Assembly (NCBI GenBank): GCA_015075625.1
Contig: JABTTZ010000001.1
Coordinates: forward strand, 496,001-560,000
Length of the DNA stretch: 64,000 nucleotides
Direction of reading: 5' to 3'
Source: Anaerolineales bacterium
GTDB lineage: Bacteria > Chloroflexota > Anaerolineae > Aggregatilineales > UBA2796
The notes beneath the pieces were generated by a model. It was not told the origin of the DNA. It was given only the letters and a program-made list of their open reading frames with translations, and did no database searches. The position numbers were made by a program, and so were the translations under genes. Positions 23,871 through 29,721 of this stretch are shown piece by piece (the first letter of the stretch is position 1; every line of letters starts with the position of its first letter).

Positions 23871-25910
23871 TTATTCCTCACCGGATTCGTCAGGGGCATC
23901 CTCGTTAATGGTGGGTTCTTCATCGCTGATAAAGGATGCCCATTTCCCGTGCATCCCATCCTCAGTGACACCATAGAAGATGCGCAGTTTCCCCTGATCA
24001 CGCAGCACAAGGTCATAGCGGATCATACCGCTACGTCGATAACGTTTGCGCAAGCCATAATCGCCCTCCCATTGAACAGCTTTCGCTTGGAGGGGCTTTG
24101 TCTCATGCTCAATAATGGCATAGTGCCACAGTCGCCGCGCCGAACTACGGGTGACATTCTTCACAACGGCTCCCTTTCGGAGGTCACGCATGACGTGGTA
24201 TTGTTCGCCTTTGCGTGTTTCCGTTCCCACAATCTCTACGCCTGTGCGGGGAGCGGTGTTGCCCATCATCGGGGGGGCGGGCGGCAAGGGTGCATCATCA
24301 GCGGCGGAATCGTTTTCGTTGGCAAGGGGGCTGGCGGCGGGGGATGCCTCTGGCTGTCCTTTTCCGCCACGCCCTCGGCGGCGGCGGGCTGGTGCTGTGC
24401 CATCCTCAGCCGGCGCTTCGGCGGCAACCGCCACTACTGGCGGCGCAACCTCAACGGGCGCGGTGGATTGTCCTCGCCGCCCGCGCCCACTTTCCCCTTG
24501 CGCGGGACGTTCGCTCTGCTCTGGAGGCGTCTCTTGGCGCTGTGCTTGACGCGGTGGGGAAGATTGACCCTGAGTGATGAGCGCGGCGGCATTGGCGGCG
24601 TACTTTTTCTGCACCAAACCAACGATCTCGTCGCGCACGGCGAGGCTGGTTTCCGTCTCCTCGCGGACGTAGATTTTGTTGTCATCAATCGCATAGGGCG
24701 GATCGTCTCCGCGTGGGATGCGAAGGCGAATCACCGTTTTGCTGCCCGTCTCTTGGGCGTCAATCTCCACCTCTAGGGTGGGGTTAATGCGGTGGCTGAT
24801 CTCCGTTTGAAGTGTTTCGATGCTCTCGCCAACGTTGGAGACGCCAACGGGCGGGATCGTTAAATCATGCGAGACACCAATGTAAACTGTCCCCCCATTT
24901 GTGTTGGCAAAGGCGCACACATCGGCAAGGACGCCGTAAAGTCGCCCACCCTGCCGCGCCATCGAATCGTGGAAAGATTGAACGATGCTCGGTCCTGCCT
25001 CACGCGCTGATTGAATGTGATCGTAGACCTCTGTCCCTGTGCCGCGATAGGGGCGTGTGCGGGCGAAATCGTTCCCCCGGATCACCTCAAAAATTGCCTC
25101 AAAGGTGCGTTCGGGCAGGAAAATCTCGGTGATGCGGTCACCCACACCGGGGTTGCGGTCTCCGCGCTGGTCGCGGACGAGGCGATGGGCATCTGAGCCT
25201 TGAATACAGCGCATCCGACGGGGGTATTCGGGTTTTGTGCCATCGAAGAAGCGGGCGGTGGTGCTGCGTCCGCGCCGATCCAAATCGGTCACTTCAAGGG
25301 CATGAAGGTGGGCATCTTGGGTGTAGGCAATGCGTGTTTGCCCGCCGAAATCGAAGCCGCGCATAGCAACCCCGTGTGTTGAATTTGCGTGGGCAGCAAT
25401 GACCATCCCGCCGGCATCATTGATGATACGGTATGCGGTCAGCACATCGGAAGATGCCCCCACTGCTGGATTGCCTTCATCCAAAATGGCGGGGGGGACA
25501 CGCAGGCTAAGCAGCACATGCTCAATCTGCCGAACGGGGACACTGGGCGAAAAAAGCCCCAAAATGTGAAAGCCAAAGGTCGCGGTGAACTCGAACCCCG
25601 GCAAGACGAGGATTTTATCCAGCAGGCGTTGGTATTCGGCAAGGCGGCGCTTTTCTTCGGGGAGCGCCCGTTCCCGTTTGGTGAGCATCTTTAGCTCATG
25701 AATTTCATCGAGCATAGCCGCATAGCCGCGCACGGTGTTGTGATCGGTGAAAGCGATAATATCCAGCCCGCGCATTTCGGCACGGCGTAAAATATCAAGG
25801 ATGGTCACGTTCGGCTCTTGATAATCGAGCGAGCCGGGCGTATGAAGATGCAAATCCATACGATACCACTGCATCTTCTTGGATTTTTGTGTAGTCGGTT
25901 TGTTACTCAT
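23871..25910 (-). CDS. PHP metal-dependent hydrolase fused to AlbA_2/Schlafen-type nucleic-acid-binding domain
   Basis: A 679-residue protein. Residues 15-300 are a PHP phosphoesterase-like domain: HLH (His21, His23), FTDHN (Asp57, His58), AAHANSTHG near 190 and GSDAH near 262 supply the metal ligands. Residues about 318-440 match the AlbA_2 (divergent AAA_4/Schlafen-like) domain ([24 protein letters not shown]). A Pro/Ala/Arg-rich disordered linker (about 445-565) precedes a C-terminal domain I do not recognise ([12 protein letters not shown] region). It may be a nucleic-acid-directed phosphoesterase or a regulator; the function is inferred. It is the last gene of the hsp20-lon-receiver group, 29 bases after the receiver. 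Confidence 0.8.
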
Positions 25911-25939: not shown

Positions 25940-26299
25940 TCATCTCCCGCTCAACAGTTGGGTAAATAGCCCTGCAAGTTTGGCGGGTTCAAAGGGTTTG
26001 ACAAGGAAAACCGACGCACCAACTTTTAATGCCTCATCCTCAACATTCATCCCAGAAACCATAAGAATCGGCGTCTTGGCAAACTCCGTCTGAGCGCGAA
26101 GTTCCTTGATCACCTGTATTCCGGTAATATCGATGAGGTTGTAATCGATCATGAAAATGTCAGGGCGTTCGCGTTGGGCAGCAGCCAATACTTCTCCCCC
26201 ACGCGACACGACCACCACCTCGAACCCGTCTAAACTGAGCAGCGTTTGAAGCAGCGTCACGGTGATGCGGTCATCGTCAACGATCATTACTTTAGCCAA
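25940..26299 (-). CDS. Single-domain response regulator (receiver)
   Basis: A 119-residue CheY-like receiver. The acidic pocket is Asp8/Asp9 (IVDDD), the phosphoacceptor is Asp52 (MIDYNL), Ser is in MVSGMN, and Lys is in LVKPFEP. There is no output domain and no kinase nearby. It sits between lon (31 bases upstream) and the PHP/AlbA gene (29 bases downstream) on the same strand, so it is probably co-transcribed with the hsp20-lon proteostasis genes, which is unusual company for a receiver. Confidence 0.88.
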   Translation of the reverse strand: MAKVMIVDDDRITVTLLQTLLSLDGFEVVVVSRGGEVLAAAQRERPDIFMIDYNLIDITGIQVIKELRAQTEFAKTPILMVSGMNVEDEALKVGASVFLVKPFEPAKLAGLFTQLLSGR

Positions 26300-26330: not shown

Positions 26331-28898
26331 TTACGTTCCGCTTTTGCCGTTCTTTGCGGCTCTGGCGGTTTTCTTGGCGGGTGGGGCATCCTCTAAGGCG
26401 GCATCTAAGACATCTTCGACGCGCTCAGCAAGGATAAAGGTCATCGCCTCCCGAATATCGGACGGAATATCCTCTAAATCGGGTTCGTTGCGGCTAGGCA
26501 AAATGACGGTATCCACACCAAAGCGGTTGGCGGCAAGGACTTTATCTTTGATCCCACCAACAGGGAGAACTTGCCCGCGAAGGGTGATTTCCCCCGTCAT
26601 GGCAACGTTGTGATGGACAACCCGCCCCGTAATTAACGAGGCAAGGGCGGTTGCCATGGTCACCCCGGCGGAGGGACCATCTTTGGGAACGGCTCCGGCA
26701 GGGACGTGCAGGTGAATATCGTTTTTCTCGAAGAAATCCTTCGGGATATTCAGTTCCCCGGCACGGCTGCGGATGTAGCTGAGCGCGGTGCGGGCGCTCT
26801 CTTGCATCACTTCCCCTAGCTGCCCTGTATATTGAAAGCCCTTCGCGCCGGGCATCGCCGTTGCCTCAATGAACAGGACATCTCCCCCAAAGGCGGTTGC
26901 CGCCAGCCCTGTTGCCACACCCGGCAGAGTCGTCCGTTGGGCAAGCTCATCTTGGTAGCCAAAACGCGGTTTTCCCAACAGGTCGCGAAGTTGCTTTTCG
27001 CTAATCCGCGCTTTTTTCTTGATCCCCTCGGCAATCTGCGTGGCAATTTTGCGCACCACCCCACCAATAGAGCGCTCCAAACTGCGCACGCCCGCTTCCC
27101 GCGTATAATCGCGGATCAGGGTATGAAGGGCATCATCGGTGAAACTGACCTCATTGCGACGCAACCCGTTTTCCTTGATTTGGCGGGGGACAAGGTAACG
27201 TTTGGCAATCTCCAGTTTTTCCCGTTCGGTGTATCCCGATAGGGCAATGATCTCCATCCGATCACGGAGCGGTCCGGGGATCGGGTCAAGTTCATTGGCG
27301 GTGGTGATAAACATGACTTGCGAGAGATCAACGGGAACATCCAAGTAGTGATCGCGGAATTCAAAGTTCTGCTCTGGGTCAAGCACTTCCAACAGCGCAG
27401 ACGCCGGGTCGCCCCGAAAATCACGCCCTAGCTTGTCGATCTCATCAAGCATAATCACCGGATTGATCGTCTCGACGCGACGCAAGGTTTGAATCACCCG
27501 CCCGGGCAGCGCCCCGATATACGTCCGGCGAAAGCCGCGTATTTCCGCCTCGTCACGCACCCCACCAAGACTCAGCCGGATGAACTTACGCCCCATCGCC
27601 CGCGCAATGGATGCCCCTAGCGAGGTTTTCCCCACGCCGGGCGGTCCAACAAAGCACAGAATCGCCCCTTCGCGGTCACGGCGGACGGGATCGCCCGTCT
27701 TGGCTTTGCCCTCTGCTTTGGCGCGGCGTTCGTCGGGCGTGCCGAACCGCTCTTGCCGAAGGCGGCGCACGGCAAGAAATTCCAAAATGCGCTCTTTGAT
27801 GTCCTTCAAGCCGTAGTGGTCTTCGTCAAGGATACGCCGTGCGCTCCCGATGTTCAGGCTGTCCTCGGTGCGCGTTTGCCAGGGGACGGTGGTGATCCAA
27901 TCAAGGTAGGTGCGAATCACCCCATATTCAGCGCTGGCAGGGGAGAGTCGCGCCATACGATCCAGTTCGCGATTTGCCTCTTTCAACGCTTCTTCGGGCA
28001 TCCCCGCCTTCTCCACACGGAGGCGGAATTCCTCTACTTCGGCAGCCTGATCATCTTCTTCGCCCAGTTCGCGGCGGATTGCCTTCAACTGCTCGCGCAG
28101 GAAGTAATCACGCTGAACATGCTCAATTTCCGACTGCGCCTCGGTTTGGATTTTTCGACCTAACTCCAAGACCTCGATTTCTTTGCTGAGAATGGTCATC
28201 AGCAGGCGAAGTTTTTCAACGACGCTATCAAGTTCAAGGATGCGTTGGTAGTTGTCGATGCTCAGGCGGATGTAGGTGGCAATGGCATAGACAAGCTGGA
28301 GCGGGTCTTCCACATTCAGCGCGGAGTTGATCAACTCACCCGGGATATTAGGGACGAGATCGGCAAGGCGCGTGAACTGATCGATCACGTTGCGCATGAG
28401 CGCCTCAACCTCGATTCCCTTTTCCACCGTTTCGGGGATCGGGGTGACCATCGCCTTCAGGTACGGCTCTGTGGTGACATACTCGCCAATGCGGATACGG
28501 GCAATGCCCTGCACCAAAAGGCGGATCGTGTCATCGGGGGCGCGGAACAAGCGCAGCACCTGCGCCATTGTCCCAATAGTATGAACATCATTCGGTCCGG
28601 GCGTCTCCAATTCGGGGTTTTTGGAGGCGACCAAGCCGATCAACCGCTCGCCCGCAACCACCTCATCAACAAGGCGTTTGGAGCGCGGCTGCCCAATGTT
28701 GAGGGGCATTGCCGTTTGGGGATAGACCACCAACCCTCGCAAGGGCAAGATGGGCAAAACCGCCGGAACAACGGGCAAGCCGTTTTCGGGGGCGGGTGGT
28801 TCATCTTCTTTCAGTTCGACGCCGCGTTCGTCGTCGCTGACCGTCACAGAGAGCAATTCGTCCGTGTCTTGGGGGCGTTTTTTGGGTTGGTCGGACAT
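26331..28898 (-). CDS. lon: ATP-dependent protease Lon
   Basis: An 855-residue AAA+ serine protease that degrades misfolded and regulatory proteins in the cytoplasm. It has an N-terminal LAN substrate-binding domain ([15 protein letters not shown]), coiled middle region, AAA+ module with Walker [10 protein letters not shown] near residue 420, and the protease domain with catalytic Ser near 741 (PKDGPSAGV) and Lys near 784 (GGIKDKVLA). About 20 charged residues (around [17 protein letters not shown]) are inserted just before Walker A compared with the E. coli enzyme. AGGAAT precedes the ATG. Only 6 bases separate it from hsp20 upstream, so both share the repeat-bearing promoter. Confidence 0.96.
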
Positions 28899-28904
28899 GG
28901 ATTC

Positions 28905-29396
28905 CTAACGTTCGTCCGTCTTGGCTGCCTCGTCGCGCTCGACATCGACGTTGACAATATGCACTTGTTGATTTGTAGCGCGTGGAAGCTCAACGCGCAA
29001 AAAGCCATCTTTATAGGTCGCGGCGACGCGCTCTCGTTCGATGGACCAGGGGAGGCTAATTGCCGTGCGAAACTCGCCATAGCGAACTTCCATTTGGTGA
29101 AACGCCATGCGGTCTTGCCCTACCCGCCGCCGAACGCCGCTAATGATTAAACGGCGATCCTGCAAAACGACGTTAAATTCGCTATCACGCATCCCCGCAA
29201 TTTCAACCATGACAATGAGGCGGTCTTCCAACTCGAAAACATCCGTTGGTGGACGCCAGGTGTTCGACTGCTGCATCACGATCCATTGGTTCACTTGACC
29301 ATAATGTGGGGAGTCGAGGGAGAGATCATTCTCTGCACTGCCGAGGATGAGCATGGGAGGTTGGGTGGTGTCCACAGACGACTCCGCAATTGGCAT
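28905..29396 (-). CDS. Small heat-shock protein, Hsp20/alpha-crystallin family
   Basis: An ATP-independent holdase of about 163 residues. The alpha-crystallin domain (NTWRPPTDVFELEDRLIV through RVELPRA) covers the second half of the protein. The VVLQDRRLIISGVR and YGEFRTAISLP strands are typical. I place the start at the ATG at 29396 (MPIAESSVD), preceded by CGGAG. The frame stays open upstream to 29477, but those codons lie across the promoter and the tandem repeats. It is the first gene of an operon with lon, a sensible holdase-protease pairing. Confidence 0.88.
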   Translation of the reverse strand: MPIAESSVDTTQPPMLILGSAENDLSLDSPHYGQVNQWIVMQQSNTWRPPTDVFELEDRLIVMVEIAGMRDSEFNVVLQDRRLIISGVRRRVGQDRMAFHQMEVRYGEFRTAISLPWSIERERVAATYKDGFLRVELPRATNQQVHIVNVDVERDEAAKTDER

Positions 29397-29416
29397 ATCT
29401 CCGAAACTATGGTGCG

Positions 29417-29465
29417 ATTCTACCACACCATTTTGAATCTGACGCAATCTGACGCAATATGATGC
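29417..29465 (-). promoter_or_regulatory. hsp20-lon promoter with three tandem 10-bp repeats
   Basis: Three direct decamers lie end to end on the plus strand: AATCTGACGC (29436-29445), the same again (29446-29455), and AATATGATGC (29456-29465). On the minus strand a TAGAAT -10 box lies at 29417-29422, and the first decamer covers the -35 position, where no TTGACA is present. One-helical-turn spacing over a weak -35 suits an activator bound to direct repeats. No CIRCE-type inverted repeat (TTAGCACTC type) is visible. Confidence 0.55.
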
Positions 29466-29661
29466 AGAAGGGGGCAATTTGGCGGGAGGAGAGTTTCACT
29501 CTGGGGGGGTAACCAATAACCCTTTGTTGTCCGAATATGCTGCCCTTCTTTTGGAAGAAGGGCGTGAGACAAATACACCAGCGCGGGGGTGAGACGCCCG
29601 AGCTAAGAATAGCCACCCCTGTGGAACTTGGAAAGACAAACCACCTGATGTAGTTGCCTTC

Positions 29662-29712
29662 AAGCCCCGACGGGGTGGTCAGCCTTTTAGCCCGCTGCTA
29701 AAGCAGCGGGCG
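29662..29712 (+). repeat. Bipartite palindromic repeat, copy 4
   Basis: AAGCCCCGACGGGGTGGTC is followed by AGCCCGCTGCTAAAGCAGCGGGC. The right half is here a perfect CCCGCTGCT/AGCAGCGGG palindrome, with compensating changes relative to copies 2 and 3 that keep the pairing. It lies just after the pckG stop. Confidence 0.8.
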
Positions 29713-29721
29713 TAACTGTCC

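Follow-up and report, generated by a model that had tools for sequence, protein, structure and literature searches.

Among the systems closest to the element studied here are the operators of the OmpR/PhoB family of response regulators, whose members recognise direct repeats spaced by roughly one turn of the helix: most ArcA sites are described in PMC3798270 as holding 3 to 5 repeats, mainly with an 11-base-pair (bp) spacing, and the CpxR box GTAAA-N5-GTAAA has, as given in PMC3127752, a period of 10 bp. CtsR, the class III heat-shock repressor of Bacillota, reads head-to-tail heptads with a 10-bp period at heat-shock core promoters, while the HrcA target, the controlling inverted repeat of chaperone expression (CIRCE), is an inverted repeat. 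Finally, slippage can leave short tandem repeats; these consist of a few head-to-tail copies, nearly identical, which are found in one genome but not at the orthologous loci. The element which we compare to these systems is an array of three tandem decamers over the promoter of the hsp20-lon genes in a 64,000-nucleotide stretch (the window) of an Anaerolineales bacterium of the Chloroflexota (GCA_015075625.1, contig JABTTZ010000001.1, positions 496,001 to 560,000). We conclude that the array is probably a lineage-specific slippage repeat; the conserved hsp20-lon promoter of the order, found during the same comparison, is a more solid finding than the array itself. Array and promoter are laid out as follows, in positions of the window.

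29436 to 29465, minus strand: three tandem 10-bp repeats, about -26 to -55 from the predicted transcription start
29440 to 29445, minus strand: hexamer GCGTCA in the -35 slot, with a 17-bp spacer
29423 to 29427, minus strand: extended -10 element TGTGG, from the sequence and the comparison of orthologues
29417 to 29422, minus strand: -10 hexamer TAGAAT, placed by the motif TGTGR-TANNAT

The decamers lie at 29436-29445, 29446-29455 and 29456-29465, and the first two copies are identical while the third differs at 2 of its 10 bases. The plus strand reads AATCTGACGC-AATCTGACGC-AATATGATGC and the coding (minus) strand GCATCATATT-GCGTCAGATT-GCGTCAGATT, followed by CAAAATGG, TGTGG and TAGAAT. The original prediction had described three such repeats over this promoter, and the sequence, Tandem Repeats Finder (TRF) and the shuffles all agree with it. 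TRF detected the array with period 10, 3.1 copies and a score of 48; when at most 3 mismatches were allowed, the degenerate 30-mer matched one site in the window and none in 100 dinucleotide shuffles. The array is beyond chance expectation. For a genomic background, we sampled 460 kilobases (kb) of the 4.68-megabase (Mb) genome, made of 20 stretches plus the window. In a scan for periods of 8 to 13 the array ranked third, behind two repeats of period 12, and its score of 15 compares with a maximum of 11 when these 460 kb were shuffled once by mononucleotide; TRF gave 30 rows of any period scoring at least 48. Among the tandem repeats of its genome, the array is strong, not extraordinary.

The array covers the -35 slot and ends 13 bp upstream of the -10 hexamer. 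The hexamer GCGTCA matches TTGACA at 3 of 6 bases and a sigma-70 scan found no canonical -35/-10 pair at the hsp20 promoter, so that the weak -35 noticed earlier under the array, upstream of TAGAAT, is confirmed. The -10 box ends 20 bases short of the hsp20 start codon (29396), and transcription is predicted to start at about 29410, giving a leader of some 14 nucleotides (nt) which contains GGAG. The absence of CIRCE at this promoter also stood: a genome search for TTAGCACTC-N9-GAGTGCTAA as an inverted repeat with up to 3 mismatches found none there, and only two CIRCE-like sites in the whole genome (C1:1617178-1617279), about 50 nt upstream of a gene pair which we take, from the translations, to be groES-groEL. 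The genome thus probably has HrcA-type control, though not of hsp20-lon.

To place the array in its lineage, orthologous promoters were compared across the order. Hsp20 matches with E ≤ 1e-27 occurred in 81 of 154 genomes; 70 of these loci, the window's own included, were read and 11 left out. The array was present at a single locus of the 70, that of the window. Within 300 nt upstream of the hsp20 homology, the 69 other loci had no repeat of period 8 to 13 of comparable strength, nor any copy of GCGTCAGATT within 1 mismatch. The same-genus genome, whose Hsp20 is 81% identical, has a promoter aligning with that of the window at 76%, the alignment reaching the proximal unit only; of the array it has no more than TCAGATT, which likewise stands 12 bp from the hexamer of its -10 motif. 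Confinement to one lineage, with the unit occurring at most once in sister genomes, is what a slippage repeat would be expected to show, and is what was found (1/70 loci; TCAGATT only in the sister). A second strain of the window's species was not found among the genomes searched.

Searches for further copies gave a similar picture. Allowing for 3 mismatches at most, the decamer pair had no site in its own genome beyond the array. TTGCGTCAGATT with up to 1 mismatch gave 11 sites versus 4 for the reversed control, and exact matches were confined to the two sites within the array; the degenerate pair with up to 2 mismatches gave 23 sites versus 4, and 21 of them lay outside the array, 16 within open frames of at least 100 amino acids (including the only 1-mismatch site) and 5 intergenic with 2 mismatches. 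Across the 154 genomes, the decamer pair gave 61 matches versus 15 control counts; the single exact copy was that of the window and, comparing coordinates, none of the matches with 1-3 mismatches fell at an hsp20 locus. The excess over the reversed control in both searches argues against pure chance. We would put it down to codon composition because, among the 20 order-wide matches checked (out of 59 outside the own genome), 17 fell within open frames of 90 amino acids or more, including the single 1-mismatch case (genome G005). The original prediction had gone on to propose activation by a regulator binding the direct repeats, and had asked for a genome-wide search for the same array: this claim is left unsupported because the array is absent from all 69 other orthologous upstream regions examined, which is one half of what the prediction had named as refuting it, and because searching its own genome for the decamer pair turned up no further site.

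The same comparison brought out an older promoter. The motif TGTGR-TANNAT was present upstream of hsp20 at 39 of the 70 loci, distributed by family as 9/11 in f1 (the family of the window), 0/24 in f2, 3/4 in f3, 16/17 in f4, 5/5 in f5, 0/1 in f6 and 6/8 in f8. Of these 39 anchored loci, the 31 others (24 of family f2 and 7 more) being set aside, 26 had TTGAG (hexamer TTGAGN) upstream of the -10 hexamer at a spacing of exactly 17 bp, namely 15/16 in f4, 5/5 in f5, 5/6 in f8, 1/9 in f1 and 0/3 in f3. From the sequences, the ancestral promoter clearly appears as a TTGAG -35, a 17-bp spacer and an extended -10. Aligning 18 representative TTGAG loci, hand-picked mostly as one per genus, we found CTCTTA or a variant of it directly before TTGAG and TTCTW about 11 bp further upstream, which defines an order-wide element, TTCTW-N6-CKCTWATTGAG at -35 and TGTGG-TAKMAT at -10 (e.g., loci L015, L021 and L026). 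With up to 3 mismatches, element and -10 together found the hsp20 promoter in 14 of 18 genomes searched and only 4 other sites, each with 3 mismatches; the element thus does not appear to be the motif of a regulon. The window does not have a close copy in the right slot: its homologous slot scores -18.1, versus 6.5-25.6 for the sequences from which the profile was made. The GAG of this -35 is conserved although non-consensus, and a factor might be bound there.

Together, these observations lead us to favour, with somewhat better than even confidence, the reading of the array as a short tandem repeat specific to its lineage and produced by slippage, putatively without a dedicated regulator, the extended -10 carrying the promoter. 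The ancestral TTGAG -35 would already have decayed in the family of the window; slipped-strand duplication of a unit of about 10 bp may then have taken place in the relaxed -35/spacer region of the hsp20-lon promoter, and transcription would start from the conserved extended -10 (TGTGG-TAGAAT), for which a good -35 is not needed. Two identical copies beside a diverged one form the pattern expected from successive slippage. What is observed directly is the sequence and position of the array, the lack of it in the orthologues that were examined, and an extended -10 that is conserved. From these we infer the duplication mechanism, the activity of the promoter and the lack of a bound factor; a dedicated regulator probably does not bind the array. 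Like other repeats made by slippage, it presents few near-identical head-to-tail copies in one genome only; it differs from them in sitting precisely in a promoter and in having only 3 copies, one of them diverged. Several points weigh against slippage as the whole explanation. The array lies exactly over the -35, with a helical-turn period and upstream of stress genes, where an activator or a repressor would be expected. Short operators turn over fast and one other genome of the genus was compared, so that non-conservation is not decisive. Moreover, close matches elsewhere in the genome would not be expected for a regulator that has a single target or reads a looser motif. We therefore regard the array as an ordinary, real and probably neutral feature, although there is a modest chance that it serves as an operator in this species.

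The rival that survives best holds that the array is the operator of an OmpR/PhoB-type response regulator, a head-to-tail class II activator which replaces the missing -35 and induces hsp20-lon under some stress; it gives a specific form to the activation proposed in the original prediction. As in the Pho box, the CpxR box and the multi-repeat ArcA sites, direct repeats about one helical turn apart cover or replace the -35, here from about -26 to -55, ending 13 bp before the -10 hexamer and above a slot with 3 of 6 bases of TTGACA, and the operon itself encodes a receiver domain. That receiver, however, shows in Pfam only PF00072 and no DNA-binding domain, so the operon in the window does not supply a DNA-binding regulator. 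The array is off the tested consensus strings: its matches to PhoB, CpxR and ArcA-like consensus sequences are at background, being equalled by 23%, 54% and 78% of random 50-nt stretches, respectively, and the repeats of PhoB and ArcA are 11 bp apart. No regulon was found, the array occurring in one genome only and without a second close site there, and an extended -10 promoter needs in principle no activator. We consider this reading possible but doubtful.

Two further readings start from the order-wide element. The hsp20-lon promoter of the order may have a dedicated element that overlaps the -35, occurs almost solely at this operon in each genome and is read by a single-target regulator; in the family of the window this element would have been lost, and in this species a new direct-repeat array, recognised by that regulator or a different one, would have taken its place. 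We hold this to be improbable. Slightly less probable still, the array would be a degenerate remnant of TTCTW-N6-CKCTWATTGAG, or a re-made version of it, shifted upstream by duplications. Its units are among the best scores for the element in the 330 nt upstream of hsp20 (the distal unit ranks 1 and the middle unit 3) and TCATATTG is similar to TCTTATTG. The score is nevertheless low, 0.3 against the range of the profile sequences given above, with the homologous slot at its strongly negative value, and the spacings to the -10 hexamer are 32 and 22 bp, not 20. Finally, a CtsR-type repressor operator over a heat-shock core promoter is very unlikely: the array does hold head-to-tail heptads with a 10-bp period, CGTCAGA-TTG-CGTCAGA being in register with A/GGTCAAA-NAN-A/GGTCAAA at 10 of 15 specified positions, but an equal score is reached by 9% of 50-nt stretches taken at random from the window, the genome has only this one site, and the reading is largely refuted by the missing CtsR, since PF05848 was found in none of 11 genomes of the family, including the window's own, while it was detected in Lactococcus lactis among 14 control genomes; an unrelated repressor would have to bind here instead.

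Other explanations of the region were tried and rejected. The array is not coding sequence: its 10-bp period is not a codon period, and while the frame upstream of the ATG at 29396 is open to a TTG at 29477, the same-genus genome has no start codon in the open frame upstream of its Hsp20 homology. Nor is it part of a dispersed repeat, the only one of the intergenic region beginning at about 29575-29581; in a search of the own genome with 29397-29721 (E ≤ 0.01), the array part matched only itself. An RNA thermometer was rejected as well, the predicted 5' untranslated region being about 14 nt long; the minus-strand fold of 29380-29470 has a z-score of -0.82, 44 of 200 shuffles being equally good, and Rfam gave a single sub-threshold match at 29681-29710.

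The genes downstream of the promoter are the following.

28905 to 29396, minus strand: hsp20 (Hsp20/alpha-crystallin, PF00011), with its ATG at 29396 and GGAG just upstream
26331 to 28898, minus strand: lon, ATP-dependent protease, from Pfam and the open reading frame
25940 to 26299, minus strand: stand-alone response-regulator receiver domain (PF00072), from Pfam
23871 to 25910, minus strand: fourth gene, a Schlafen/AlbA_2-domain protein, with a weak PHP match just below the curated cut-off

These four genes likely form one operon, because the gaps between them are about 6, 31 and 29 nt. In nine longer records of relatives, among which two loci are present twice, hsp20 and lon are adjacent in 9/9, the receiver comes next in 8/9 and the fourth gene follows in 6/9; lon is on the strand of hsp20 at all 70 loci. 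The order of hsp20, lon and a receiver in the original prediction is borne out by Pfam and the tight gaps, and is kept in relatives. Its description of the locus (array, weak -35, no CIRCE, gene order) holds, whereas its proposal of activation by a direct-repeat regulator is not supported.

Upstream of the array, 29542-29563 form a perfect inverted repeat (GCCCTTCTT/AAGAAGGGC), with arms of 9 bp and a loop of 4 nt, which the terminator scan did not count as a terminator. Between the stop codon of the phosphoenolpyruvate carboxykinase gene and the hsp20 promoter, 29581-29715 holds a single copy of a dispersed repeat some 130 nt long, for which 102 matches were listed in the genome (self included); many of them form tandem clusters at C1:1.58-1.78 Mb. 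An IS200-type transposase (PF01797) lies within one of these clusters (L165), which suggests a family like the repetitive extragenic palindromes and their associated tyrosine transposases (REP/RAYT).

Were the array functional, Chloroflexota would have in it a new direct-repeat switch acting on a chaperone-protease operon; a full-text literature search turned up no study of such a switch in this phylum. If it is a slippage repeat only, its significance hardly goes beyond a warning against taking a neat helical-turn array in a promoter, on its own, as evidence of an operator. In either case, the order-wide hsp20-lon promoter, with its TTGAG, 17-bp spacer and extended -10, is the lasting by-product of this analysis and offers a concrete element to test.
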